Source: Elusimicrobiota bacterium (GTDB lineage Bacteria; Elusimicrobiota; Elusimicrobia; UBA1565; UBA9628). Taken from it: a stretch of 46,130 bases of DNA. Below the pieces are notes generated by a model that saw only the letters and a list, made by a program, of their open reading frames with translations, was not told the DNA's origin and ran no database searches. Positions 23,527 to 46,085 of the stretch are shown here, piece after piece. Each line of letters begins with the position of its first letter. Positions within the stretch are counted from its first letter, which is position 1. The position numbers and the translations under genes are program-made. The DNA lies in the NCBI GenBank assembly GCA_016212825.1, contig JACRDS010000057.1, positions 1 to 46,130 on the forward strand, given 5' to 3'.

Positions 23527-24750
23527 TCAGGCGACCGGATGCCGCAAGGCCCAGCGGCCGTCTTTCTTCTTCCAGAGGTGCGGAGAGCGGAAGCGGTCCG
23601 CGATGGCGTCGAACTCGGCGCGGGAGATGCCCATGTAGGCCAGGATCTCCGGCAGGTGCCGGGCCGGGTACTCGCCGTCGAACTTGCGGCACAACGCCAC
23701 CCCTTCCTCCCGCGTGATCTTGCCGTTGCGGACCTCCTGCGAGGCGTCGTACATCGTCCTGCCGATCCCGAACTTGACGTGCATGCCGTAGAACCCGACG
23801 GGAGCGATCTTGTCGTCCAGGTCGGAGTACTTGCAGTAGGTCCCTTCCGAGCGCTCCTCCTCGGGCGTGAACCCCGTGTGCTCCTTGGCGTAGTAGTAGC
23901 ATTCCTGGGGGTCCCACCTGAGGTAATAGCCGAGGTAGTGGACCTTCGTCCCGGCCTTCCGGGCGCGGTTGGGATCGATGGGCAGGTAGGGTTCGAGGTC
24001 CTTGAGCGACAGGCCATGGCCCTTCATCAGGTCCCGGCAGGAGACGCCGCCGAGGTAGGTCTCTTCCAGGGCTTGGTCCATGGAGAAATAGATCTCCGAC
24101 ATCTCCACCTCGTCCGTGCTGGCCGGGTCGCCGTACTCGACGTTGCTCTCGCCGTACATGACCAAGGGGATCCCGAAATGGATGGAGAATTTCGGCCCCA
24201 CGTTCTTCTGGCCGAGCACGAAGGGCTGGAAGGGGTGGAGGAGGTTCGTGTAGGCGAGCCGGGTCAGCAGGGCCTGGACCTGCCCGTTGGGCGAGTAGAG
24301 CATGTTGTCCAGGCCTCCCGCATGGATCATGTTGGAGAGGTTCTGCCAGCCGACGGGCCGATAGATGATGGGGCGCCAGGTGACCGTCAGGGGGTTCATG
24401 CCGTACTTGACCTTGAGGATATGCGCGGCGTAGGCGCTGTCCTTGCCGCCGCTGCAGGGGATGATGACGTCGTACCAGCCGTCCTTGCGCCGATAGCGGT
24501 CCAGGAGGCGCAGGAGATCCTCCTCGCGCTTGCTCCAGTCGATGCGGAGCTTCTTCTCGTTGTAGCGGCAGGCCGCGCAGACGCCCTCGGCGTCGAAGCC
24601 GATGTAGGACCGCTTGGTCCCGGCGTTCTTGTGCTCGATGGAGGTGTTGGGCTTCTGGTTGGACATCACGCAGCTCTTGCAGTACCTGACCTCGCGGGGG
24701 AGGCCGTGCCAGGCTTCGAGCTGCTCTTCAGCGACTTCGTATTTGTTCAT
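23527..24750 (-). CDS. N-acetyl sugar amidotransferase (WbpG/WbuX-like), copy A
   Basis: 408-codon ORF from MNKYEVAEEQ; RYCKSCVMSNQKPNT, VCAACRYNEKKLRIDWSKREE, IIPCSGGKDSAYAAHILK (PP-loop); ATGA overlap with hisH-like gene. Confidence 0.92.
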   Translation of the reverse strand: MNKYEVAEEQLEAWHGLPREVRYCKSCVMSNQKPNTSIEHKNAGTKRSYIGFDAEGVCAACRYNEKKLRIDWSKREEDLLRLLDRYRRKDGWYDVIIPCSGGKDSAYAAHILKVKYGMNPLTVTWRPIIYRPVGWQNLSNMIHAGGLDNMLYSPNGQVQALLTRLAYTNLLHPFQPFVLGQKNVGPKFSIHFGIPLVMYGESNVEYGDPASTDEVEMSEIYFSMDQALEETYLGGVSCRDLMKGHGLSLKDLEPYLPIDPNRARKAGTKVHYLGYYLRWDPQECYYYAKEHTGFTPEEERSEGTYCKYSDLDDKIAPVGFYGMHVKFGIGRTMYDASQEVRNGKITREEGVALCRKFDGEYPARHLPEILAYMGISRAEFDAIADRFRSPHLWKKKDGRWALRHPVA

Positions 24751-25382
24751 AGCGAGTCCTCGATCATGCCGATGAAGTTCTCGATGAGGCGCAGGCCGGA
24801 GGCCGAGCTCTTCTCGGGGTGGAACTGACAGCCCAGGATGCGGCCCCGGCCGACCACGCTGCAGAACTCGACCCCGCCGTAGCGGGCGGTCGCCAGGACC
24901 TGGCTCGCGTCGGCGGCGCGCGCGTAATAGGAGTGTACGAAATACATGTCGGGGGCGGCGAGTCCGCGCAGCAGCGGATGCTCCCGCTGCGGCAGGATGT
25001 CGTTCCACCCCATATGGGGGACCTTCGCGCTCCGGTCGAAGGCCGGGTGGCTGTGGAAATGCAGCACCTCCCCGGCGATGAGCCCCAGCCCCTGGTGCAG
25101 CCCGAACTCCTCGCTGGTGTCCATGAGGAGCTGCATCCCCAGGCAGATGCCCAGGATGGCGGCGCCGGCCTCGGCGGCGGAGCGGATCACCGCGTCCAGA
25201 CCGAGGGCCTCGAGCCGGCGCTTGCCGTCGCCGAAGGCCCCGACTCCGGGGAGGATGAGGGCGTCGGCGGCGCGCAGGACGGCCGGGTCATGGGAGACCT
25301 CGACCGTGCGCCCGCAGCGCGCGAAAGCGTTGCCGAGGTTGTAGAGGTTGCCCAGACCGTAGTCGACGACCACCAGCTTCAT
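24747..25382 (-). CDS. hisH: HisH-like glutamine amidotransferase subunit
   Basis: 211-aa ORF; ILGICLGMQLLMDTSEE and GCQFHPEKSSASG catalytic triad motifs. Confidence 0.93.
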   Translation of the reverse strand: MKLVVVDYGLGNLYNLGNAFARCGRTVEVSHDPAVLRAADALILPGVGAFGDGKRRLEALGLDAVIRSAAEAGAAILGICLGMQLLMDTSEEFGLHQGLGLIAGEVLHFHSHPAFDRSAKVPHMGWNDILPQREHPLLRGLAAPDMYFVHSYYARAADASQVLATARYGGVEFCSVVGRGRILGCQFHPEKSSASGLRLIENFIGMIEDSL

Positions 25383-25383
25383 C

Positions 25384-26142
25384 TTAGAGGCGGACCTCCA
25401 GGCCGTCGCCGCGCAGCGCGCTCTTGGCGTCGCCGATGGTCAGCAGGCCGTAGTGGAGCACGGAGGCCATGGCGACGGCGTCCACCCCCGGGGTGCGCAG
25501 GACATCGACCAGGTGCTGGGCGCTCCCCGCCCCGCCGCTGACGATGAGCGGGACCGCGCAGACCCGGGCCGCGGCCGCGACGAGCTCGAGGTCGAAGCCC
25601 TTCTTGGTGCCCTCCGCGTCGACCGAGGTGAGGAGGACCTCCCCCACGCCCAGGGCCAGGGCTTCCCGGATCCAGGCGATGGCGTCGCGGTGCGTGCGCT
25701 CGCGGCCGGTCTCGGTGTAGGCCTCCCACTGCCCCGGCCCCCGGCGCTTGGCCTGGACGGAGAGGACGATGCACTGGGAGCCGAACTTGTGGACGGCCTG
25801 GCGCAGGAACTCCGGGTTGCGGATCGCGGCGGTGTTGACCGCCACCTTGTCGGCGCCCGAATGGAGGATCTCCGTGATGTCCTCGATCTTGCGGATGCCG
25901 CCGCCGACGGTCATGGGCACGAAGACGCGCCGCGCGGCGGCCTTGATGATCTCGGTGAGGCTGTTGCGCTCATAGAGGGAGGCGACGGCGTCGACGTAGA
26001 GGAGCTCGTCGACGCCCTGCGAATAGTAGCGGTCGGCCAGCTCGTCCGGGCGGCCCACCACGCGCAGCCCCTCGAGATGGATGCCCTTGACCACGGTGTT
26101 GTTCTTGATGTCCAGGCGCGCGATGACCCGGAGCTTCTTCAT
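25384..26142 (-). CDS. hisF: HisF-like (WbuZ-like) subunit, probable ammonia-channel partner of the sugar amidotransferase
   Basis: 252-aa ORF; RLDIKNNTVVKGIHLEGLR, VGGGIRKIEDI, LLTSVDAEGTKKGFD; residue 130 is Gln. Confidence 0.92.
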   Translation of the reverse strand: MKKLRVIARLDIKNNTVVKGIHLEGLRVVGRPDELADRYYSQGVDELLYVDAVASLYERNSLTEIIKAAARRVFVPMTVGGGIRKIEDITEILHSGADKVAVNTAAIRNPEFLRQAVHKFGSQCIVLSVQAKRRGPGQWEAYTETGRERTHRDAIAWIREALALGVGEVLLTSVDAEGTKKGFDLELVAAAARVCAVPLIVSGGAGSAQHLVDVLRTPGVDAVAMASVLHYGLLTIGDAKSALRGDGLEVRL

Positions 26143-26945
26143 GCGAAGAACCTCCGCAGTTCCCCATAGGCTTGCGCGAGCCGGTCCGGGTCCCGGTAGT
26201 ACTCGATGACCACGTCGAAGCTGCGCGGCCGGCCCTGCGCCGCTGCGACGATCCGGCGCAAGTCCGCGAACTCCTCATCGTCCGGGGGCCGATGGGCGTC
26301 CACGCCGCGGCGGGGCTTGCTCAGATGCAGCTCGCGGATGAGTCCGGGATCGAAGCCGGACAGGAAGCGCTCGCGAGGCCAGCCCAAGGCCTGGGCGCTG
26401 ATGCGGGCGTGGGCCAGGTCGAGGACCAGCCCGAGCGAGAATTCGCGGCAGAGCGAATTGTAGAAATCCGGCCCGCAGACCCCTTCGTAGGCCCCGGTGG
26501 CGTAGTAGGGCAGGTTCTCCACGGCGAGCTCGCAGTCCGGGGGCAGGCGGCGGCGCAACTCGGCGAGCCGGCTGCGGCAGCGTGCGCGCAGCTCGGAAAG
26601 GCCCAGCCGGCGGCCGAGGCCGCGGTAGCAGCCCGCTTCCTCCCGGACGCGGGAAAAGCAGGGGCCGATGTCGAAGGAGAACCGGCGCACCCGGTGGCGG
26701 CGCAGGAGCGCGTAGGCGCCCAGGGCCTCGAGGTCCTCCAGGAAGCCGTCGAGGACGAGCGCCGCCCCGGAATGGAAGAGCATCTCCTGCCCTGCGGAGG
26801 CGACGAAGCCCTTCAGGTCCTTCTGCTCGAGGGCGGCGAAGCCGGCCCGGAACTCCGGAGGCAGGCGCGCGTAGAGCGTGGAGACCGCCAGGACGGGGCG
26901 GATGCAGTGGCTGCCGGCGCGGACGGGGGGGCGCATGGCGCTCAT
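26139..26945 (-). CDS. TIM-barrel sugar phosphate isomerase/epimerase-like protein
   Basis: 268-aa product from MSAMRPPVRAG; LAVENLPYYATGAYEG and LVLDLAHARISA resemble AP-endonuclease-2/xylose-isomerase-like barrels. Confidence 0.7.
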   Translation of the reverse strand: MSAMRPPVRAGSHCIRPVLAVSTLYARLPPEFRAGFAALEQKDLKGFVASAGQEMLFHSGAALVLDGFLEDLEALGAYALLRRHRVRRFSFDIGPCFSRVREEAGCYRGLGRRLGLSELRARCRSRLAELRRRLPPDCELAVENLPYYATGAYEGVCGPDFYNSLCREFSLGLVLDLAHARISAQALGWPRERFLSGFDPGLIRELHLSKPRRGVDAHRPPDDEEFADLRRIVAAAQGRPRSFDVVIEYYRDPDRLAQAYGELRRFFA

Positions 26946-27904
26946 CCCCTCTGGCAGGCGTGGCAGTCCGGCAGCTTGTCCGAGAGGATGCCGGAGCGCA
27001 CGCTGCGCATGGCCGCGGATCCCCAGGCCTCGGCGATGGTCCCGCTCCTGAGGCTGCCGATCGGCAGGGCGCGGCCGTTGAAGCTGCAGCAAGGGAGGAT
27101 GGTCCCGTCGGCCAGCACCGCGACCCGGGCCCAAGGCGAGCGGCAGTCCCATTTCTTGGGGCGGGCGCCGACGGGGTGGATGCCCGGGCGCGCGTTGAAA
27201 TCGTCGTAGATCTGTATGTCGATCATGTCCGCGCGGTCCCGCCAGAAGGCGATGAAGTCCTCCTTCTCCGCCGTGTTGGACGGCATGTCGACGAAGGAGA
27301 CCCGGACCACGGGCAGGGACCGGCGCCGGGCCTTGCGCTGTTCGAGGAATGAAATGAGATTGGCGCGCACCCGGGAGAATCCCGCGCCGCGGATCTTTCG
27401 GTAGGTCTTCGGCGTGAATGCGTCGAGGGACACGAAGAGGTTCACCAGGCCGCTCGAGAAGGCCTCCTCCGTGTGGCGATCCAAAAGGAGGCCGTTGGTG
27501 ATGAGGCGCGAGTCCACCACGCCCCGCTCGTGGGCGTAGCGCACCATGGCGAAGACGTCCGGGTGGAGCAGCGGCTCCGCGAAGGCGCCCAGGTTGATCG
27601 AGAGCAGGCCCCGAGGCGCGCCTTCGTCGATGACCCGGTGGAAATCGTCCAGGGAGAGCCGGGCCCCGGTGTTGACGCGGTAGCGGACGTCGGGATGCGC
27701 GTCCGGGTTGCGCGGACACATGACGCAGCGCTGGTTGCAGGCGTCGACGAGCTCGAAATCGATGTGGATGGGGAAGGGCGGGGCCTCCCCGCCGGCCTGC
27801 AAGGCCCGCCACTGGGCCCGGTAGGCGGCGTAGCGGGGGCCCAGTTCGCGGGCCAGCAGAGCCTCGACGTCCTTCTCGCTGTGACGCTTGATGTTAGCGT
27901 ACAT
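26942..27904 (-). CDS. Radical SAM protein, likely with SPASM-type C-terminal Cys motifs
   Basis: Starts MYANIKRHSEKDVEALL; CNQRCVMCPRNPDAH (CxxxCxxC); C-terminal ILPCCSFNGRALPIGSL ... CHACQ. Confidence 0.88.
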   Translation of the reverse strand: MYANIKRHSEKDVEALLARELGPRYAAYRAQWRALQAGGEAPPFPIHIDFELVDACNQRCVMCPRNPDAHPDVRYRVNTGARLSLDDFHRVIDEGAPRGLLSINLGAFAEPLLHPDVFAMVRYAHERGVVDSRLITNGLLLDRHTEEAFSSGLVNLFVSLDAFTPKTYRKIRGAGFSRVRANLISFLEQRKARRRSLPVVRVSFVDMPSNTAEKEDFIAFWRDRADMIDIQIYDDFNARPGIHPVGARPKKWDCRSPWARVAVLADGTILPCCSFNGRALPIGSLRSGTIAEAWGSAAMRSVRSGILSDKLPDCHACQRG

Positions 27905-28875
27905 TATCGCAGCAGGGCCGGGACCAGGAGTTCGCCCCGGCGTATGTCCCGCCTGGCCCGGCGGCCGAGGATGCGGAGGTACTCGTCGGCGCCCAGCCCG
28001 CGGCCGGGCCGCTGCGGCCGCAGCGCCACCACGGCCTCCCGGGTGAGCGCGCGCCCCCGGGGGATGTCCCGCGCGGCGAACAGCTTGCGCCGGATGAGAG
28101 CCCGCATCTTGAGTTCGGCCGCGGAGAGGGTCCGCCGGCCCGAGCCCAGGGCCGCGGCGACGCGATCCCCTTCCCGCCGGAGGCGGGAGAATTCCTCGGG
28201 CAGCAGCGACATGGGATTGTCTCCGCCGGGCAGCGCGCGGTCTATGGTGAAGTGCTTCTCGACGACCGTGGCGCCCAGGGCGATGGCGGCGAGGGACGCT
28301 TCCACCCCCGGGGAATGGTCCGAGTAGCCCGTCGGGCAGCGGTAGCGCTCCTGCAGGGTCCTGATGAAGCGCAGATTGAGCTCGGGGAAATCGGCCGGAT
28401 AGCTCAGGGCGCAGTGCAGCAGCGTGAAGTCCGCGCGGCTTCTGCGCAGGAAGCGCACCAAAGCGTCGATCTCGGCCAACGTCGCGCCGCCGAGAGAGAC
28501 CAGCAGCCGCCGGCGCAGGCGCACGGCCCCGCTGAGCAGCTCCAGGTTGTTCATGTCGCCGGACGCGATCTTCACGGCGTCGCCGCCGAGCCGGCCCAAC
28601 AGGGCCAGGCTTTCGGAGTCGAAGGGGGTCGCCAGGAAGCGGCAGCCGCGGGACTCGGCACGGGCCTTGAGCCCGGGATAGGCCTTGAGGGCGAGGCCCT
28701 CTCTTGCGAAGTCGTTCCAATACGCGCTGGAGGGCTCCACGAAGCGTTCCGTGCGCCAGACTTGGAACTTCACATAGTGGGCCCCGGAAGCGGCGGCGGC
28801 GTCGAGCATGCGCCGGGCCAGGCGCAGGTCGCCGTTGTGATTGGTGCCGATCTCGGCTATATAGGTGACGCTCAT
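27904..28875 (-). CDS. neuB: NeuB-family nonulosonate synthase with C-terminal SAF domain, copy A
   Basis: 323-aa ORF; YIAEIGTNHNGDLRLA, FLATPFDSESL, VKIASGDMNN, GYSDHSPG, VEKHFTIDRALPGGDN. Confidence 0.93.
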   Translation of the reverse strand: MSVTYIAEIGTNHNGDLRLARRMLDAAAASGAHYVKFQVWRTERFVEPSSAYWNDFAREGLALKAYPGLKARAESRGCRFLATPFDSESLALLGRLGGDAVKIASGDMNNLELLSGAVRLRRRLLVSLGGATLAEIDALVRFLRRSRADFTLLHCALSYPADFPELNLRFIRTLQERYRCPTGYSDHSPGVEASLAAIALGATVVEKHFTIDRALPGGDNPMSLLPEEFSRLRREGDRVAAALGSGRRTLSAAELKMRALIRRKLFAARDIPRGRALTREAVVALRPQRPGRGLGADEYLRILGRRARRDIRRGELLVPALLR

Positions 28876-28882
28876 GCCGCCC

Positions 28883-30607
28883 TCAGATGAAGTTGCCCGT
28901 CCGGATCCTCTTCAGCCTGTCGAACTCGACGTTGAATTTCGTGATGCGGCACGCCGGGCAGTGCTTCAGGCAGAACTTTGGGTCGAGGACCATCCGGGCC
29001 TGCCGGCGGCGTTCCGGGCCCGTCCAGATGGCGTGGAAGGACTGGCGGTTGATGTTCCCGATGGGGGGGAACCAGGAATGGATGTTGAGCCTGCCGCACA
29101 GGAAGACCGAGCCGTCGGCGGTGATGATGACCGTGAGGGAATGGCAGGGGCAGCCGAGCCCGGCGTTGCCTTTGACGACGTTCTCGGTCATGCCGTCCAT
29201 GATGACCGCGAAGCTGCCGGTCTGGAACTTCTTGAGGTACTCGAAATCGAAGGCAGGCTTGAACTCCGGATGGTCTATCACCGGGCGGAATTGGATGTAG
29301 CTCACCCCGGTCTCGCGCAGGCGCATGGTCAGGGTCTCGATCTGCGACATGTTGCGGTCGGTGGCCACGTAGCCGATCCCGACCACTGGACGATGCCGCG
29401 CGAAGTAGACGATGTTCTCGAGGATGGCGTCGAAGCCCGAATGCCCCTTCAGGGCCGCCATCTCCTCGGGGCAGGAGGCGTCGAGGCTGACGCGGATCCA
29501 CTCGAACTCGTCGACCAGGCGGCTGTCGAGGCGCGTGGACCCGTTGGTGATGAGGCCCAGGGCCAGCCCCTGGTCCTTGAGCGCGCGGACCGCCTCCCGG
29601 AAATGGGGGACTATGGTGGGCTCGCCGCCGCCCTCGATGGTCACGCCTTTCGTGCCGTGGGAGGCCAGGTCCTCGGCGAGCCGGCGGATCGTCTGGAGGG
29701 GCATGTCGTCGGTCTGGGAAGCCCGCAGCTTCTTGTCCGAGCACCAGACGCAGTCGAAGTTGCATTGGTTCGTGAAGGAGAGCTCCACGCTGATGGGGTA
29801 GGAGGGGTCGGGCTTGGCGGGCGTGGCGCGCCGCAGGGCCGCGATCTTGTCCGGGAACAGCAGGATCTTGTTGAGGCCCACCTCGCGATGGCTGTCCTGC
29901 CGGTTGTGCTTCGCGACGATAGGGTTCTCGTCGAGGAAGCGGATGAGCCCCTCGTTGCCCGCCTGGCCTGCGTGCTTGAGGATGCTCTCGATGACCTCGA
30001 GGTCCCGGGGCGTATCCAGGATGACGCGGTACTCATGGCGCGGATCGGGGTAGGGCTGGGCGAACATGCGCAGGCCCTCGGGGTTGGCCCGCAGGTGGAT
30101 GGTGCCGGTCTCCTGGAACTCCGGAGCGATGCGCGCGACGTCGACCTTGGCGAACATGCGCGGGTCGAAGACCTCGCAGTCCGTGCCGAAGACCACGCCG
30201 TTGTAGTGGCCGTTGTAGCTGAACTCGTAGCCTCCGGCGACATGGGCCTTGAGCAGCCGGCTGGCCTCCTTTGGGTCGAAGAGCGGCTTGTGGCCTTCGA
30301 CCTTGAGGACGGGGCCGCGCAGCCCGCGGCAGGCGTCCTTGAGCCGCTGGAGCACGTTGTCGAGGGAGCCGGCGTGCACCGAGGCGCCGAGTCGGCGGGC
30401 TTCCTTCCGGAGCGGCTGGTCCTCGGCCCGGTCCGACGTGGCCAGGACGATCCGCTCGACTTCCGGGATCCGCCGCAGCGATTCGACGATCGTCTGCATG
30501 ACCGTCTTGCCGCTGGCCAGGCGGATCAGGGACTTGTATTCCAGGATGCTCGACTTCCAGGAGCTCTGGATGATGGCGGTCACTCTGGGCATGGCGGGCC
30601 GCGTCAT
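28883..30607 (-). CDS. Fusion of SpsF/NeuA-like nucleotidyltransferase domain (degenerate) with radical SAM/SPASM domain
   Basis: Single ORF; N-terminal VTAIIQSSWKSSILEYKS...VILDTPRDLEVIESIL (SpsF-like), C-terminal CNFDCVWCSDK, GGGEPTIVP, CLKHCPAC. Start 30607 or 30592; the listed 30646 start would read through the palindrome. Confidence 0.85.
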   Translation of the reverse strand: MTRPAMPRVTAIIQSSWKSSILEYKSLIRLASGKTVMQTIVESLRRIPEVERIVLATSDRAEDQPLRKEARRLGASVHAGSLDNVLQRLKDACRGLRGPVLKVEGHKPLFDPKEASRLLKAHVAGGYEFSYNGHYNGVVFGTDCEVFDPRMFAKVDVARIAPEFQETGTIHLRANPEGLRMFAQPYPDPRHEYRVILDTPRDLEVIESILKHAGQAGNEGLIRFLDENPIVAKHNRQDSHREVGLNKILLFPDKIAALRRATPAKPDPSYPISVELSFTNQCNFDCVWCSDKKLRASQTDDMPLQTIRRLAEDLASHGTKGVTIEGGGEPTIVPHFREAVRALKDQGLALGLITNGSTRLDSRLVDEFEWIRVSLDASCPEEMAALKGHSGFDAILENIVYFARHRPVVGIGYVATDRNMSQIETLTMRLRETGVSYIQFRPVIDHPEFKPAFDFEYLKKFQTGSFAVIMDGMTENVVKGNAGLGCPCHSLTVIITADGSVFLCGRLNIHSWFPPIGNINRQSFHAIWTGPERRRQARMVLDPKFCLKHCPACRITKFNVEFDRLKRIRTGNFI

Positions 30608-30612
30608 TTGAT

Positions 30613-30627
30613 GTTCAATAATTGAAC
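30613..30627. promoter_or_regulatory. 15-bp perfect-arm palindrome O3, putative operator in a divergent intergenic region
   Basis: GTTCAATAATTGAAC, between the SpsF-like/radical SAM fusion (minus) and carbamoyltransferase (plus); plus-strand TATAAT at 30632-30637. Confidence 0.8.
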
Positions 30628-30711
30628 ATTGTATAATAAGCCTCATGTCCTGTCAACGAAACCCATTTCCGGGCGGATTTTGTAGAATCCTGCCTTCATG
30701 AAGGAGCGCGG

Positions 30712-33653: not shown

Positions 33654-34640
33654 ATGCGCTTCACCATCGGCTTCGATCCTCGGGACAAGAAGGCGCTGTT
33701 CCGCTATTGGGATGAGATTCTGACGACCCAGAAATGGGTGGAGGGGAAGTTCACGCGCCTCTTCGAAGAGAAATGGGAGGCGCACAACGGTCTGCCCAGC
33801 CTCGCTTTCTCCAGTTGGAGCGGGGCGGCGGTCGCGGCCCTGGAATACCTGGGGGTGCGGGGAAAGACGGTGCTCTGCCCGTCCAACACGTTCATGGCGA
33901 CTCCCTTGAGCGTCATGGCCGCAGGCGGGAAGGTGGGGTTCGTGGACTGCAACCGCGAGGACCTTTGCCTCTCCCTGGCCGACCTGAGAGTGAAGATCGC
34001 GCGACATAAGCCCGCGGCGGTCTGGGTCGTGCATATTGGAGGGCACATCGCCTTCGATATCGAAGGCATCGCGCGCTTGTGCCGCCGAGAGGGCGTCGTC
34101 CTGCTCGAGGACTGCGCTCATGCGCACGGCGCGACCTTCAAGGGCCGCAAGCCCGGGTCCTGGGGGCGGGCGGGATTCTATTCTTTCTATGGGACCAAGA
34201 CCATATCGACAGGAGAAGGCGGCATGCTGGTCTCCAAGGACAGATCCCTCATGGGATTCGCCGCCAAGTACCGCAATTACGGGAAGCCGGATTACAGGAC
34301 GCCGGGGCTGAATCTGCGCATCAACGAGTTCGCCGCGGCCTTGGGCTGCGTGGAGACGGACCGGCTCCCGGACATCGTGGCCTGGAAGCAGGACTACGCG
34401 CGGCGCTGCCTGGACCCGATCTATCCGAATCGTGTCCGCTTCCCTGCGGGCATGAAGTCCGGCTATTATAAGTACATCGTGTTCGATCCCATAGCCCATT
34501 CCACAGGCAAGGTCTACGACCAGCCCTGCCACCGCATCATGGGACGCAAGGACCGGCTGCCCGATTCGGAGTGGGTGGCGGCCCACCACTGGTGCGTCCC
34601 GCTCTATTATAAGGGCATCGTGCAAAGGAGAGGATCATGA
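33654..34640 (+). CDS. DegT/DnrJ/EryC1-family aminotransferase
   Basis: Starts MRFTIGFDPRDKK with AAAGGAGATC ribosome-binding site; LEDCAHAHGATFKGRKPGSWG, FYSFYGTKTISTGEGGML. Confidence 0.92.
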   Translation: MRFTIGFDPRDKKALFRYWDEILTTQKWVEGKFTRLFEEKWEAHNGLPSLAFSSWSGAAVAALEYLGVRGKTVLCPSNTFMATPLSVMAAGGKVGFVDCNREDLCLSLADLRVKIARHKPAAVWVVHIGGHIAFDIEGIARLCRREGVVLLEDCAHAHGATFKGRKPGSWGRAGFYSFYGTKTISTGEGGMLVSKDRSLMGFAAKYRNYGKPDYRTPGLNLRINEFAAALGCVETDRLPDIVAWKQDYARRCLDPIYPNRVRFPAGMKSGYYKYIVFDPIAHSTGKVYDQPCHRIMGRKDRLPDSEWVAAHHWCVPLYYKGIVQRRGS

Positions 34641-35545: not shown

Positions 35546-36307
35546 TCAGCCGTCTTTCCGGAAGGCCTTCCAGCGCCGCGGCACGCGGGCGTTGATCCGG
35601 GCCAGCTCCGGGCGCTCGCGCAGGAAATCCAGGATCTGCGCCAGGGAGAAGTAGCCCTGCCCGAGGGCCGCGAAGTGCCCGACCACGGCCCTGATGAGCT
35701 CGAGGTCCTCCGGCGTGTCGACCTCGAGATAGACGTCGGGATGGCGGTAGCGCGGCGGCGCCTCCAGGTCGCGGATCCGGAAGACCTCGGGCCGGCGCAG
35801 GACGTTGAAGCTGGAATGCTCGCGCAGGGGGTCATCCGCGGCGGTGAGCCGATCCGCCTCGAGCAGGGCCGCGGCGGCATAGACGATGACTTCCTGGCCC
35901 GGGGGATACGTGGTCTTGCGCGAGTTGGTGAGGCAGTCGAGGGCGCGGGAATCCTTCAGGAAGGCGGAGACCACCTCGTCGACCAGTTCGGCATCCGGCA
36001 GGGGCGAGTCGCCGAAAAGCTCCACGTGGACGTCCGGTCTATGTTCACGGATGAGTCCGGCGATGCGCCCCAGGACGTCGTTCTCAGGGCCCCGATAGCA
36101 GGCCACGGCGTGGTCCTTGCAGAACTCGACGATGCGGTCGTCGGCGGCGCTGGTCGTGGTGGCGATGAGGATATCGTTCAGGAGTCGGCAGCGGCGCAGG
36201 CGTTCCACCTGCCACAGCAGCATGGGTTTGCCGCAGATGTCCTTGAGCACCTTCCCAGGCAGGCGGGAAGCTCCCATGCGCGCCTGGATCGAGGCGATGA
36301 CCTTCAT
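35546..36307 (-). CDS. spsF: SpsF-like cytidylyltransferase
   Basis: 253-aa product MKVIASIQARMGASRLPGKVLKDICGKPML ... VELFGDSPLPD ... YLEVDTPEDLELIRAVV. Confidence 0.9.
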   Translation of the reverse strand: MKVIASIQARMGASRLPGKVLKDICGKPMLLWQVERLRRCRLLNDILIATTTSAADDRIVEFCKDHAVACYRGPENDVLGRIAGLIREHRPDVHVELFGDSPLPDAELVDEVVSAFLKDSRALDCLTNSRKTTYPPGQEVIVYAAAALLEADRLTAADDPLREHSSFNVLRRPEVFRIRDLEAPPRYRHPDVYLEVDTPEDLELIRAVVGHFAALGQGYFSLAQILDFLRERPELARINARVPRRWKAFRKDG

Positions 36308-39537: not shown

Positions 39538-40424
39538 AGGATGTACTCTCCCTTGCTGGGGGTTTCGGGGAACTCGTGCTCCAGGATGTCCAGGGCGGCG
39601 TCTCCGGTCTTGACGCGGAAGAGTCCCGGCCGCGCCTCCAGCACCTGGCCCGGTTCGATGTTGTCTTGACGAGGGGCATCCTGCGCGATGCGGGTCTTCC
39701 AAATCCTGATGTCGGCCCCGCGGAATCTGCACAGCGCCCCCCCGTAGGGCCGCGCGAGAGCGCGGACCAGGTCATGGATGCGGCGGGAGGACATGCGCCA
39801 ATCGATGAGCCCGTCCGCGGCCGTGCGCTTGCGCCAGGAGTTGGCCCGAGAATGGTCTTGCGGGGTCCGGGTATAGATGCCGCGGGCCAGCTCCGGCACG
39901 CCTTCCTGGAGCATGGCGGCGCCGAGGTCGCAGACCCGCTCGTAGACGGAGCCGGCGTCATCCTCGGGAGATATCGTGAAAGGGCGCTGCTTCCAGATGT
40001 CCCCGCCGTCCACGCTCTCATCGAGCCAGAAGAAGGTGAGACCGCTCTCCGAGAGACCGTTGGCGATGGCCCAGATGATGGGGTGGCGGCCGCGGTTGGC
40101 GGGCAGCAGGGCCGGATGGCTGCCGATGGAGCCGACCTTGGGCAGCTTCAGGATGTCCCGAGGCACGATCTGGGAGAGGCCCAGGACGAAGAGGAGATCG
40201 CATCTCGCCGCGGCCAGGTAGTCGCGTTCGTCGGCGATGCGCTCGAAGTAGCGGACTTGCTTCCGATGGCGCGTCGCGACGTCCGCCAGGTCGCGGTAAT
40301 CGCTGTTATTCCCGGCGTTGCGAGGGCAGAGGATGCCTGCCACCTCCAGGGGCGAGTCCAGGAGCACGGCCAAGCAGCGGGCGCTGAATTCGACGGCTCC
40401 GACGAAGACGCAGCGCGGCTTCAT
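39534..40424 (-). CDS. Formyltransferase-family protein (sugar N-formyltransferase-like)
   Basis: MKPRCVFVGAVEFSARCL ... GSIGSHPALLPANRGRHPIIWAI ... DESVDGGDIWKQ. Confidence 0.88.
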   Translation of the reverse strand: MKPRCVFVGAVEFSARCLAVLLDSPLEVAGILCPRNAGNNSDYRDLADVATRHRKQVRYFERIADERDYLAAARCDLLFVLGLSQIVPRDILKLPKVGSIGSHPALLPANRGRHPIIWAIANGLSESGLTFFWLDESVDGGDIWKQRPFTISPEDDAGSVYERVCDLGAAMLQEGVPELARGIYTRTPQDHSRANSWRKRTAADGLIDWRMSSRRIHDLVRALARPYGGALCRFRGADIRIWKTRIAQDAPRQDNIEPGQVLEARPGLFRVKTGDAALDILEHEFPETPSKGEYIL

Positions 40425-41587
40425 CGCGGTGTGAAGAACGATTTCTTGACCAAGGCTTGGTCGAGAGGTATCCGCGCCAGGACGGCGGCGATCCGCAGCG
40501 AGGCATCCCGTCCCGCGTAGGGGTTGTGCAGGCCCTGGAGCCGCCTGCGCCAGCGCGGGTCCATCGCCTTGTCGATGGCTGCGGCGATGGCCCGCGCCGA
40601 GCCGCCCTTCACGTCGATGACGTTGGCGGCCCGCAGCCGGCCGCTCTGCCGGTTCCCGATATTGACCGCGGGCAGGCGGAAGGAGGGGGCCTCGATGAGG
40701 CCGCTCGAGGAATTGCCGACCATCAGGGCGGCGTGCTTGAGCAAGGAGAGGTAGCGCAGCCGCCCCAGGGAGGCATGCGCCACGGCCCGAGCCGGGTGGC
40801 GCCGGACGAAGTCCCCGATGCGACGGATGATGGGAGAGTTCTCCGTGTCCATGTTGGGGAAGGTGAACACCCAGAACAGGGCGGGGAAGTGCTCCAAGGC
40901 CTGGATCAGACGACGGCTCTCCTGGGCGGCGCAGCCGCGCTCCAAGGTGACCGGATGATAGGTCACGATTCCCCACGGCTCTTGCATCGGCAGGCGCAGC
41001 TCCTCGGCCAGAGCGGCCTTGCTGTGGAGGGGGAGCCTCTGGATTCCGTCGAGGCCGGGGGATCCGAACCGGAAGACCCTCCCGGGCGCCTCACCCATGC
41101 GCAGCAACCTCTCCCGGTACGTTTCCGTGGCGGGGAAGTGGATGTGGCTCAGCTTCGTGACGGCATGGCGGATCTGTTCATCGATGAGGCCTTCGGTCGC
41201 TTCTCCGCCGTGGATATGGGCCACCGGGAGGCGGAACGGCAGCGCCGCGCTGGCCGCGGAGAGTATCTCGTAGCGGTCGCCGAGCACCACCAGGAGGTCC
41301 GGCTTGAGGCGGCTGTAGGTCTGGGCGAATCCCAGGGTGCCCCGTCCCATGGCCTGGGCGATATCGCATCCCGAGTCCCCGCGCAGGCCGAGGTCGATGC
41401 GGGCCGCGATGGGAAGCCCGTCCCGCTCGATCTCCCGGACGGTGAGGCCGAATCGCCGCATCAGGTGCTGGCCGGTGACGATGAGCAGGAGCCGCAGGTC
41501 CGGGCGCCTGCGGATGGCGTCCAGGAGCCCCTTGAGCAGGCCGTAGTCGGAACGGGCGCCCGTCACCACGGCGATGCGTCTTCTCAT
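40421..41587 (-). CDS. neuC: NeuC/LegG-like hydrolysing UDP/GDP-HexNAc 2-epimerase
   Basis: MRRRIAVVTGARSDYGLLKGLLDAI ... LLVVLGDRYEILSAASAA ... VAHIHGGEATEG. Confidence 0.93.
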   Translation of the reverse strand: MRRRIAVVTGARSDYGLLKGLLDAIRRRPDLRLLLIVTGQHLMRRFGLTVREIERDGLPIAARIDLGLRGDSGCDIAQAMGRGTLGFAQTYSRLKPDLLVVLGDRYEILSAASAALPFRLPVAHIHGGEATEGLIDEQIRHAVTKLSHIHFPATETYRERLLRMGEAPGRVFRFGSPGLDGIQRLPLHSKAALAEELRLPMQEPWGIVTYHPVTLERGCAAQESRRLIQALEHFPALFWVFTFPNMDTENSPIIRRIGDFVRRHPARAVAHASLGRLRYLSLLKHAALMVGNSSSGLIEAPSFRLPAVNIGNRQSGRLRAANVIDVKGGSARAIAAAIDKAMDPRWRRRLQGLHNPYAGRDASLRIAAVLARIPLDQALVKKSFFTPR

Positions 41588-42609
41588 CGGAGCATGTCCC
41601 AACGGAGCAGGGTGTCCGCCTCCGCGGGGCGGCGCAAGGTCCGACCGACGACCTTTCTGGCCAGGGTCGGGGGGATGCCGGTGCCCGGCCGTTTGAACGC
41701 CAGGGAGTCGAGCCGGAGCGGGACGCCCGCCTCCATTCGTCTGGCCAAGACCACGCTGCGCCTGGAGACCCGGCGGATCTCTGCCTCCGAGGGGCGGGGC
41801 GTCTTGACCCCGTCCCCGAGGGCCTCCACGGCCTGCCGCAGGCTCACGACCAGATCCCGCAACTCCCGGGCATCGAGGGAGACCGCATGGTCCGGCCCGG
41901 GCAGGCCCTTGTCGAGGGTGAAATGCTTCTCGATGATCCGCGCCCCTAGAGCGGCGGCCGCCACTGCCACGGCGATGCCGGGCGTATGGTCGGAGTAGCC
42001 GACCGGGACCTTGAAGGCCTCGGCCAGCGTGGACATGGCGCGCAGGTTGGAGTCCTCCGGCTTGGCGGGATAGTTGGAGACGCAGTGGAGCAGGGCGAGG
42101 TCGCGGTTGCCGGCGCGGCGCAAGACTTGGACCGCGGACCGGACTTCTGCGAACGTGCTCATCCCTGTGGATAGGATCACCGGCCTTCCCTTGCGGGCCA
42201 CATGCGCGAGCAGGAACGGGTTGGTGACCTCCCCGGAGGGGAGCTTGAAGGCCTTCATGCCCAGGCGCTCGAGGAAGTCGGCGCTCTCCTCGTCGAACGG
42301 CGTGGACAGGAACAGTATCCTCCGTCTGCGGCAGCGCGCCAGGACGGCCTCATGCGCGGCCGGGTTCAGTTCGAGCGCCTTGAGCATGTCGCGCTGCGAG
42401 GCGCTGCCGCGGGAGCCCCGTCTTTGGTAGCGTGCCTTGGGGGCATCGGCGCAGGCCAGGGCTTCGGCCCGGAAGGTCTGGAATTTGACGGCGTCCGCGC
42501 CGGCCGCGGCCGCGGCGTCCACCAGGCGCAGGGCCAAGTCCTGGCGGCCATTGTGGTTGACCCCGGCTTCAGCGATTACGAAAGGCCTGCCCGATGGGAG
42601 AAAATCCAT
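41584..42609 (-). CDS. neuB: NeuB-family nonulosonate synthase, copy B
   Basis: 341-aa ORF; VIAEAGVNHNGRQDLALRLVDAAAAAGADAVKFQTF, FLSTPFDEESADFLERLGMKAFKLPSGEVTN, GYSDHTPG, IEKHFTLDKGLPGPDH. Confidence 0.95.
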   Translation of the reverse strand: MDFLPSGRPFVIAEAGVNHNGRQDLALRLVDAAAAAGADAVKFQTFRAEALACADAPKARYQRRGSRGSASQRDMLKALELNPAAHEAVLARCRRRRILFLSTPFDEESADFLERLGMKAFKLPSGEVTNPFLLAHVARKGRPVILSTGMSTFAEVRSAVQVLRRAGNRDLALLHCVSNYPAKPEDSNLRAMSTLAEAFKVPVGYSDHTPGIAVAVAAAALGARIIEKHFTLDKGLPGPDHAVSLDARELRDLVVSLRQAVEALGDGVKTPRPSEAEIRRVSRRSVVLARRMEAGVPLRLDSLAFKRPGTGIPPTLARKVVGRTLRRPAEADTLLRWDMLR

Positions 42610-42671: not shown

Positions 42672-44060
42672 CTAACTCTGGCGGAAACCTCGGAAGGAGG
42701 CATCCCGTCCGATATATAGGGAACGCGCCGCGGATACGGTGCGACGGGCTTGGTGCTGATGGTAGTTCTCGATCAGCCTGCGATTGGCGTCGAAAAGCGC
42801 CTGGTGGAACTCCTCGTCGCTGAGCTCCGTGAAGTTGACGGAAAGCAGGTCCGAGTTGAGGTGCTTGTTCTCGTAGAAGTCGGCGCAATCCTTGAGCAGG
42901 CCCTTTTCCACGGCATGGTCGAACAGGGGCGATCCGGGATAGGGCGTCACGGGCCGGATGGTGCGCATCTGGGCGCCGTCGTCATAGCGCAGCAGGAAGT
43001 CCACGCCCTTGCGCAGGGTCTCCCGGGAGTCGCCGATATTGCCGAAGATGATGTTGAAGCCCGGGCTGATGCCGCTGGCCAAGGTCGCCTCGATCCCAGC
43101 GACGATTTGCTTGGTGGTCAGGGCCTTCTTCATGTTGCGCAGGACCTGGTCGTCGAAGGCTTCGATGCCGTAGTTGATGAAGACGCAGCCGGCTTCCTTC
43201 ATGAGGCGCAAGAGCGCCGGTTCGGCGAAATTGAGGCGGCCGTTGCAGCACCAGCGCACGCCCAGGCGCTTGCCGATGAAGGACCGGCAGAGCTCCTCGG
43301 TCCGGGCCTGGGAGGACATGAGGAGCTCGTCCGAGAAGGCGATGTAGGTGATGCCATGCTCGCGCTTGAGGAAGGCGATCTCCTCGGAGATGGCCTCGGC
43401 CGACCGGGGCCGGAAGCCTTTGTCCATCCTGTAGCAGAAATTGCACGTGAAGAGACAGCCCCGGCCGGAGAGCAGGGGCGCCACGAAATCCGTGGGCTCC
43501 GCGCGCGGCATGCGCAGGAGCCGATAGTAGGTCATGGGGAACAGGTGGTAGGCGGGGCGAGGGATGCGGTCGATGTCGGGGATGAGGGGTCGCGGCGCGT
43601 TGATGACGACCTTGCCTTCTTTTGGGAAGGCGATGCCCGCCACGCCGGAGAGGTCCTTCTTGGCGCTCAGGGCGCGCAGCAGTTCGACGATGGTGTTCTC
43701 GCCTTCCCCCATGACCAAGGCGTCGTAGCGGGTCTTCTCGAAGAAATAGCGCGGGTCCGGCACCGGCCCATGGCCGCCCAGGATGTAGAAGGGACGCTGG
43801 CGGGAACGGTTGATGGCTTGCGAAAGCCCCAGGAGCCTGCGGTATTGGTAGTAGCCGCCGATGACGCTGACCCCGACGATGTCGACGCGGTTCTGGTCCA
43901 GGTATTCCGTCAGCTGAGCGTCGGGATAGTGGTGCTGGTCCTGGTTGTAGACCTCCACGGAGCAGCCTTCCTGCTCCAGGACCGCCGCGATATGGCCGAG
44001 ACCCTGCGGGAACCAGCTGATGAAGGACTGATTATCGTAGACGACGAGCAGGACTCTCAC
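42672..44060 (-). CDS. Radical SAM protein with B12-binding-like N-terminal domain
   Basis: GTG start VRVLLVVYDNQSFISWFPQGLGHIAAVLEQEG; GRGCLFTCNFCYRM (CxxxCxxC). Confidence 0.9.
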   Translation of the reverse strand: MRVLLVVYDNQSFISWFPQGLGHIAAVLEQEGCSVEVYNQDQHHYPDAQLTEYLDQNRVDIVGVSVIGGYYQYRRLLGLSQAINRSRQRPFYILGGHGPVPDPRYFFEKTRYDALVMGEGENTIVELLRALSAKKDLSGVAGIAFPKEGKVVINAPRPLIPDIDRIPRPAYHLFPMTYYRLLRMPRAEPTDFVAPLLSGRGCLFTCNFCYRMDKGFRPRSAEAISEEIAFLKREHGITYIAFSDELLMSSQARTEELCRSFIGKRLGVRWCCNGRLNFAEPALLRLMKEAGCVFINYGIEAFDDQVLRNMKKALTTKQIVAGIEATLASGISPGFNIIFGNIGDSRETLRKGVDFLLRYDDGAQMRTIRPVTPYPGSPLFDHAVEKGLLKDCADFYENKHLNSDLLSVNFTELSDEEFHQALFDANRRLIENYHQHQARRTVSAARSLYIGRDASFRGFRQS

Positions 44061-44065
44061 GGGGC

Positions 44066-45397
44066 TCAGGTGCGGGAGAGGCTTCCGTCGAAGACCGTGC
44101 GGCGCAGGCGCCAGGCGCCCCGCTCGTTCTTCCAGAGATGGGGCGACCGGAACCGGTCGGCCAGCGCCAGGAAATAGGCCTTGTCGACCTCCGGCTGCTC
44201 GAACATGCGCGAGGCCGCCGGGTATTCCTTCCCGGGAAGGCTCAGGTAGCGGAAGAGCTCCGGGGCCCACCGGTCAGGGAACTCGCCGTCGAATTTGCGC
44301 ACCAGGGCGGCGCCTTCTTCGCGGGTGATCTCGCCGTTGCGGATCTCCTGCGCGGCGTCGGCGGTGGCGCGGCCGATGCCGAACTTGACGAAAGTGGTGT
44401 AATAATGGAGGTCGTCCATCTTGTCGTCGATGCTGTTGTATTTGCTGTAGGTGCCCGCGTTGCGTTCAGAGGAGGCCTGGAAGCCGCCGTTCTCCACCGC
44501 GTAATAGTAGGCGCCCTGCGGATGCCAGCGGAGATAATAGCCGAGGTAATGGACCTCCATCTTGAGTTTGCGCAGCTGGTCCGGATCGGGGGGCAGGTAG
44601 GGGATGAGGTCGTTGGGCTCCACTCCGAAATGGGCGACGAGGTCGGCCACCGAGGTCCCGCCCAGGAACACCTGGGATTTGTCCTGGGTGGTGAAGTACT
44701 TCCAGTCCTGGACGGTGTGGGCGGTGCCTTCTACGGGATTGCCGTATTCGGCCTCGGACTCTCCATAGAAGACGAGGGGGACTTTGTGCAGGACCGCCAG
44801 TTTGGGGGAGATGGCTTTCTGGCCGATGATGAAGGGTTGGAAGGGATGGAACAGGTTCTCCAGGGCGAGCCTGGTCAACAGCCGATGGACCCGGCCGTTG
44901 GGCGTGGACAGGATATTGTCGAACCCGGCATGGATCCAGGACAGGAAGTTCCTCCAGCCCCAATCCGTATACAGATGCGGGGCCCAGGTGGCCGTCAGGG
45001 GATGCATGCCATAGACGTACTTGAGCTTGTGGGCCGCGTAGAAGCTGTCCTTCCCGCCGGAGCCCGGCACGATGCAGTCGTAGGAGCCGTCCTTGCTGCG
45101 GTGGCGGGCGCAGAGGTCCTTGAGCTCCTTCTCGCGCAAGGCCCAGTCGATGTCCCGGCTCTTCTTCCCGGTCATGCGGCAGGCGTCGCAGACGCCGTCG
45201 GAGTCGAAAGAGATCGTCTCCTTCTTGCTCGCCTCGGTGTGGCTGTACTCGGCGGTCGAGTTCGGGCGTTGGTTGGAGATGACGCAGCGCTTGCAGAATC
45301 GGACGGCGCGGGGCAGGCCGAACTTGGTCTCGAGCTTGGACTCCGGCTTCTCATAGACCGCGAGGTCCACCGGGCCGGGCGCTCTATAGCGGTGCAT
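44066..45397 (-). CDS. N-acetyl sugar amidotransferase (WbpG/WbuX-like), copy B
   Basis: 443-aa ORF; RFCKRCVISNQRPNST, VCDACRMTGKKSRDIDW, IVPGSGGKDSFYAAHKLK (PP-loop). Confidence 0.92.
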   Translation of the reverse strand: MHRYRAPGPVDLAVYEKPESKLETKFGLPRAVRFCKRCVISNQRPNSTAEYSHTEASKKETISFDSDGVCDACRMTGKKSRDIDWALREKELKDLCARHRSKDGSYDCIVPGSGGKDSFYAAHKLKYVYGMHPLTATWAPHLYTDWGWRNFLSWIHAGFDNILSTPNGRVHRLLTRLALENLFHPFQPFIIGQKAISPKLAVLHKVPLVFYGESEAEYGNPVEGTAHTVQDWKYFTTQDKSQVFLGGTSVADLVAHFGVEPNDLIPYLPPDPDQLRKLKMEVHYLGYYLRWHPQGAYYYAVENGGFQASSERNAGTYSKYNSIDDKMDDLHYYTTFVKFGIGRATADAAQEIRNGEITREEGAALVRKFDGEFPDRWAPELFRYLSLPGKEYPAASRMFEQPEVDKAYFLALADRFRSPHLWKNERGAWRLRRTVFDGSLSRT

Positions 45398-46085
45398 GGT
45401 TCTTCTCCATTAGCGCGGCGATCAGGATAGCGTCCAAAGGGGTGTCGAGCTCCAGAGACCTCTCACGCGGCATCGTGTGCGCGATGGTCCGGGGCGTGAT
45501 GAGGGCGCGGTCCTGGAGCAGCGCCTCCCGCCGCGAGACGTAGACGGCGCCGTTGAGTCGGTAGGTCTTGGGAAGCTCCTGCCGCCTTGGGATGAGCTTG
45601 GAGGCGGGCATGACGGGGACCATCCGGTTGCCGGCTTCAAGAAAATAGGACCAGTAGGGGTTCTCGCCGGACTCGGCCACCGTGACGCAGGAGGGCGCGC
45701 CGGAGGAGTCGCAGAGCGTCAGGCAGGCGTCGATGTCCTGAGCCGTCCTCAGCGGAGAGGTCGCCTGCAGCACGGCGATATAATCATATGGCCTGCCGAT
45801 CGCTTCGACGGCATGCAGGACCGGGGCCACGCCCGGGGTGTCGTCGAGCGCCAGCTCCCGGGGCCTGACGAAAGGGACCTCGCAGCCGTGCTCCTTCGCC
45901 GTCGCGATGATCTCCGCGTCGTCCGAAGACAGGATGAGGCGGTCGATGAACGCCGAGCCCTGGGCGGCCTTGATGGTCCAGACGATGAGGGGCTGGCCCG
46001 CGAAGACCGCCAGATTCTTGCGGGGGACGCCTTTGGATCCGCCTCGCGCGGGGATAATGGCCAGGACGGACTTCCCGCCTATCAT
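45384..46085 (-). CDS. neuA: NeuA-like CMP-nonulosonate cytidylyltransferase
   Basis: 233-aa ORF; VLAIIPARGGSKGVPRKNLAVFAGQPLI ... VLQATSPLRTAQDIDACL. Confidence 0.94.
   Translation of the reverse strand: MIGGKSVLAIIPARGGSKGVPRKNLAVFAGQPLIVWTIKAAQGSAFIDRLILSSDDAEIIATAKEHGCEVPFVRPRELALDDTPGVAPVLHAVEAIGRPYDYIAVLQATSPLRTAQDIDACLTLCDSSGAPSCVTVAESGENPYWSYFLEAGNRMVPVMPASKLIPRRQELPKTYRLNGAVYVSRREALLQDRALITPRTIAHTMPRERSLELDTPLDAILIAALMEKNHAPL

Follow-up and report, generated by a model that had tools for sequence, protein, structure and literature searches.

A rare fusion of an eroded SpsF-like cytidylyltransferase domain with a radical SAM/SPASM enzyme in a nonulosonate gene cluster of an Elusimicrobiota bacterium

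The coupling of a cytidylyltransferase-like region to a radical SAM enzyme has been catalogued before: in the NCBIfam model TIGR04321 (spiro-SPASM), a CTP_transf_3-like region (model positions about 17-225) precedes the radical SAM and SPASM domains. A full SPASM domain follows a seven-cysteine consensus, which ends in CX2CX5CX3C, and holds two auxiliary clusters. The two halves of such a protein each have described relatives. KdsB binds the triphosphate of CTP through arginines in its CTP loop and the catalytic Mg2+ through a pair of conserved aspartates (PMC3149649). CMP-Neu5Ac synthetase is crippled when its metal-site aspartates are mutated or removed (PMC2901514). Among radical SAM enzymes, BlsE acts on a sugar compound, cytosylglucuronic acid (PMC3715490). 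In the open-access literature that we searched, we found no paper on the spiro-SPASM family by name, on radical SAM enzymes acting on nonulosonates (NulOs), or on radical SAM together with O-antigen and a nucleotidyltransferase domain. Here, we describe a protein in which an SpsF-like domain with an eroded active site is fused to a radical SAM/SPASM enzyme, encoded in 46,130 nucleotides of an Elusimicrobiota contig (JACRDS010000057.1; "the window" hereafter means this whole stretch).

The fusion protein and its two halves

The fusion is encoded on the minus strand by one unbroken open reading frame of 587 codons (28883-30646). Its 587-residue product contains three domains, all above the Pfam gathering cut-offs: CTP_transf_3 (PF02348; residues 24-221, 29984-30577; 38.3 against 22.6 bits, E 1.6e-9), Radical_SAM (PF04055; residues 290-438, 29333-29779; 53.6 against 29.5 bits, E 4e-14) and SPASM (PF13186; residues 499-566, 28949-29152; 33.4 against 21.5 bits, E 5.5e-8). 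The union of an SpsF-like nucleotidyltransferase (NTase) with a radical SAM/SPASM enzyme, first proposed from the letters of the DNA, is thus borne out. The frame proposed with it (28883-30607) is real, but 30607 is only the second in-frame ATG and the frame stays open to 30646; a homologue begins level with the third ATG (30592), so that any of the three could be the true start. Both halves fold well in the AF2 model (mean pLDDT 86.3, pTM 0.75). The genome behind the window is a draft in 186 contigs, and two genes might have been merged by assembly or annotation, but the frame has no stop or break, no G+C break was seen at the junction of the fused domains, and the fusion occurs at full length in two independent genomes. 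The frameshift or misassembly that had been raised as an alternative is therefore ruled out, and we consider an artefact of either kind exceedingly improbable.

The N-terminal domain retains the fold of a cytidylyltransferase. A profile of the three fusion N-domains matches the solved cytidylyltransferase 6oew (E 4.3e-29), and Foldseek places the predicted structure on 6oew with a TM-score of 0.88-0.89 by target length. The predicted erosion of its active site is plain in the alignment: the canonical CTP loop QARMGASRLPGK has become QSSWKSSILEYK (residues 27-38, 30533-30568) and the metal-site motif GDSPL has become GHKPL (residues 118-122, 30281-30295), with the second metal-site motif, DTPxDLE, kept (DTPRD, residues 211-215, 30002-30016). 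In window numbering, the two CTP-loop arginines (R29, R34), the metal-binding aspartate of GDxPL (D119) and the histidine of REH (H180) are intact in all nine standalone homologues and replaced in all three fusions: R29 by Ser or Thr, R34 by Ile, Phe or Thr, D119 by His or Asn, and H180 by Thr, Ser or Ala. Where an active CMP-NulO or CMP-Kdo synthetase has the two arginines, the window protein thus has S29 and I34, and the two metal-aspartate positions read H/N/N (119) and D/D/E (211) across the fusions. Lys38 is kept (Arg in one fusion), as is Asp211 in two of the three, and the His or Asn at 119 could still bind metal. By our reading of the shared motifs, the N-domain would correspond residue by residue to KdsB, and from the residues lost we infer that it is catalytically dead.

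This loss has not been followed by general decay. A69, T70, G93, R101, P121 and L122 are kept in all 12 proteins (the three fusions and the nine standalone homologues), and N145xH147 and C157-E158 are common to the three fusions. Fusion domains are 27-36% identical in pairs, a little below the 32-46% of standalone SpsF pairs, which points to continuing constraint on the domain. In the NTase tree, which has long branches, they form one supported group. Conserved apart from the lost residues, the domain looks like a maintained pseudo-cytidylyltransferase, that is, a pseudoenzyme under constraint.

The radical SAM half carries the CX3CX2C motif of its superfamily as CNFDCVWC (C295, C299, C302; 29741-29764), invariant in our alignments. 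Its SPASM-like region falls short of the seven-cysteine consensus: CX12GX4C (C499, G512, C517) is followed by CX3CX2C (C559, C563, C566), and this cysteine pattern probably provides for one auxiliary cluster. The nearest relatives are unfused proteins (L176-L180, L082 and L083), 44-49% identical, and more distant ones are proteins of about 350 residues from bacteria and archaea. Paired paralogues of this shorter family lie a few kilobases apart in many bacteria and archaea (for example L079, 6029-7093 and 10224-11348; also L086, L088, L092, L110 and L116). Among solved structures, the peptide enzyme SkfB matches the radical SAM half best by sequence, and SuiB is the top radical SAM match of the full predicted model. 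This half is also similar to two enzymes that act on sugars, BlsE (TM-score 0.72 by target length) and DesII; since it is like both peptide and sugar enzymes, structure alone cannot choose the substrate.

Gene context and distribution

The fusion is the first of seven closely packed genes on the minus strand, in which neighbours abut or overlap. Only 7 nucleotides downstream lies a divergent NeuB-family synthase with a SAF domain (27904-28875), followed, as judged from profile matches, by a second radical SAM/SPASM protein, this one without an NTase domain (26942-27904), a TIM-barrel protein with a marginal MbnB/TglH/ChrH (MNIO) match and an uncertain start codon (26139-26945), a HisF/WbuZ-like subunit (25384-26142), a HisH-like glutamine amidotransferase (24747-25382) and a WbuX-family N-acetyl sugar amidotransferase whose start is also uncertain (23527-24747). 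Elsewhere in the window, the minus strand encodes an SpsF with intact catalytic motifs (35546-36307), a NeuC/LegG-type UDP-GlcNAc 2-epimerase (40421-41602), a canonical NeuB above the NeuB_NnaB cut-off (41584-42609) and a PseF/NeuA-like CMP-NulO synthetase (45384-46085). A DegT-family aminotransferase is encoded on the plus strand (33690-34640), and a NeuD-type acetyltransferase is also present. The fusion thus lies in a surface-sugar cluster of the NulO type, and because this cluster has its own PseF/NeuA-like cytidylyltransferase and SpsF, the fused domain is not needed for sugar activation.

Several neighbours deserve mention in their own right. The divergent NeuB scores 273.8 bits against the NeuB_NnaB cut-off of 399.65 and is 39% identical to the canonical NeuB of the window; it may make a different sugar. 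The MNIO-like gene, between a radical SAM/SPASM gene and HisF, is unusual for a sugar operon. The window holds a second WbuX-type amidotransferase (44066-45397, minus strand), 51% identical to that of the fusion operon. A B12-binding radical SAM protein (42672-44270, minus strand) adjoins the canonical NeuB; its best NCBIfam matches are BchE and HpnJ, also AprD4, all below cut-off. On a contig of the same genus (L075, 1209-3811), an SpsF is followed by a 40% identical orthologue of the second radical SAM/SPASM protein of the window, which suggests that the pair is conserved.

The fusion is a rare protein that recurs in two other genomes of other phyla. Across about 1,500 genomes, a family-alignment scan and phylum searches recovered two further full-length fusions and no others; in most of the searches only the best three or four candidates of each genome were scored, so that some fusions may have been missed. 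One (L170, genome G731) shares its phylum with the termite-gut 'Deltaproteobacteria' MAG of L083 and is 42% identical over residues 18-564; the other (L182, genome G910) is from Nitrospirota, the phylum of a 'Nitrospirae' MAG, and is 47% identical over the alignment. First searches of genome contigs, viral contigs, plasmids and phages gave no fused homologue, and no more fusions were found among 342 genomes of the window's own phylum, in 313 and 316 genomes of two other phyla, among 42 genomes in the class of G731 or among 130 in the order of G910. In the radical SAM domain tree, all three fusions fall on the same side of one branch (support 92/87), consistent with a fusion that arose once and later spread between phyla.

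The contig of L170 is too short for context, which leaves two fusions with readable surroundings. Both sit in NulO clusters beside NeuB and an intact cytidylyltransferase. In Nitrospirota the order is fusion, DegT, a CMP-NulO synthetase-like gene, GT2 and NeuB, and the DegT of the window is 46% identical to that one. The link to nonulosonate synthesis, part of the original prediction, has therefore held. By profile search, NeuB is near two of the two readable fusions, none of seven close unfused relatives and three of 68 other family loci, although these numbers are small. The last of these counts led us to reject a general link of this radical SAM family to NulO clusters. Several of the close unfused relatives lie in a housekeeping neighbourhood, map-sel1-radical SAM-recO-rluB, and others in unrelated loci. 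In L082, L083 and L177-L180, from termite-gut 'Deltaproteobacteria' MAGs or from genomes that share their phylum, the radical SAM/SPASM gene is in or beside map-sel1-recO-rluB, and L176 adjoins a leucyl-aminopeptidase-type gene. The ancestral substrate thus need not be a sugar. A Diapherotrites archaeon has an unfused relative (32%) near NeuB and an intact SpsF. Finally, plasmid pDCAR1 of Solidesulfovibrio carbinolicus (L061, 2103-12518) carries a NulO-type cluster with pseF, NeuB, PfkB/cytidylyltransferase and SIS genes, followed by three consecutive radical SAM genes, two of them with B12-binding domains.

What the fusion might do

Judging from its domains and neighbours, the fusion probably modifies sialic-acid-like sugars. 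The fuller reading, a nonulosonate-tailoring radical SAM/SPASM enzyme that keeps a dead cytidylyltransferase as a binding or docking module, has in our estimate not quite an even chance. We envision that NeuB would make the nonulosonate, that the intact cytidylyltransferase of the same cluster would make its CMP form and that the pseudo-cytidylyltransferase would hold the sugar or CMP-sugar. The radical SAM half would then reduce its [4Fe-4S] cluster, cleave SAM and abstract a hydrogen from a sugar carbon, leading to dehydration, epimerisation, oxidation or deamination of the sugar, while the SPASM-like cluster would pass electrons on. Ligand binding, substrate and reaction are all points that we infer. 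That the N-domain presents a CMP-nonulosonate to the radical SAM catalyst, as was originally suggested, is plausible: the loss of triphosphate- and metal-binding residues from an otherwise conserved domain fits CMP-sugar rather than CTP binding. This idea is weakened somewhat by the nearest unfused radical SAM relatives, which are not in sugar clusters. In its strict form, in which CMP-activated nonulosonates reach the radical SAM enzyme through a dead copy of their own activating enzyme, the retired cytidylyltransferase serving as substrate presenter, it is possible but doubtful.

Other readings fit parts of the same evidence. The N-domain could serve as a scaffold, docking the radical SAM enzyme onto the genuine CMP-NulO synthetase or NeuB, in which case the substrate would be a hexose precursor or an assembled glycan instead of a held CMP-NulO. 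A domain whose active-site residues are gone and whose overall fold is conserved would suit this role, and the same clusters do encode other cytidylyltransferases. Yet A69, T70, G118, P121 and L122, in the presumed pocket, are invariant in the fusions, which a pure scaffold would not need, and we think this reading rather unlikely. The retained Lys38 (or Arg) and the Asp211 of two fusions might instead point to an N-domain that remains an active nucleotidyltransferase but uses another nucleotide or acid, in a protein bifunctional with radical SAM. Against this, both triphosphate-binding arginines and the metal Asp119 are lost in every fusion and every readable cluster has a separate cytidylyltransferase, so that this possibility is very slight.

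The radical SAM/SPASM half might also modify a protein or peptide, like most characterised SPASM enzymes, with the NTase as its recognition module. In fact, SkfB and SuiB are among its best solved-structure matches, near unfused relatives adjoin Sel1-repeat and peptidase genes, and an MNIO-like gene is part of the fusion operon. The neighbours that recur are nonetheless sugar genes, and the abutting or overlapping genes of the operon leave no space between them for a precursor peptide gene; on account of the same tight packing, we rejected a RiPP operon that includes a precursor gene. A peptide or protein substrate thus seems improbable to us. The nonulosonate-tailoring reading, if true, would add radical chemistry to nonulosonate biosynthesis, and would provide a case of a sugar-nucleotide synthetase that has become a part for binding substrate.

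Comparison with known systems

Each half of the fusion can be set beside a known family. With the SpsF/CMP-NulO synthetases (PF02348, 6oew), the N-domain shares the fold and most motif positions but differs in having lost the triphosphate-binding arginines, the metal aspartate and the REH histidine. The standalone radical SAM/SPASM relatives belong to the same C-terminal family and have the same cysteines, but they have neither an NTase domain nor a NulO context. BlsE and DesII have a radical SAM fold similar to that of the C-terminal half, but at low sequence identity, and the reaction of the fusion is not inferable from them; to our knowledge, neither has a cytidylyltransferase domain.

The whole protein can be compared with TIGR04321. 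The suggestion that its architecture lacks precedent is not supported: the model has the same domain order, so the architecture is not wholly new. In fact, all three fusion N-domains, as well as the intact SpsF of locus L084, match its CTP_transf_3-like region. The fusions are nonetheless set apart from the family by score, at 40.5 bits for the window and 66 bits for Nitrospirota, far below the cut-off of 250 in the comparison with the model. Thus, the fusion is best called a variant of a known architecture, and it gives the spiro-SPASM type a gene context from which a substrate could be guessed and tested.
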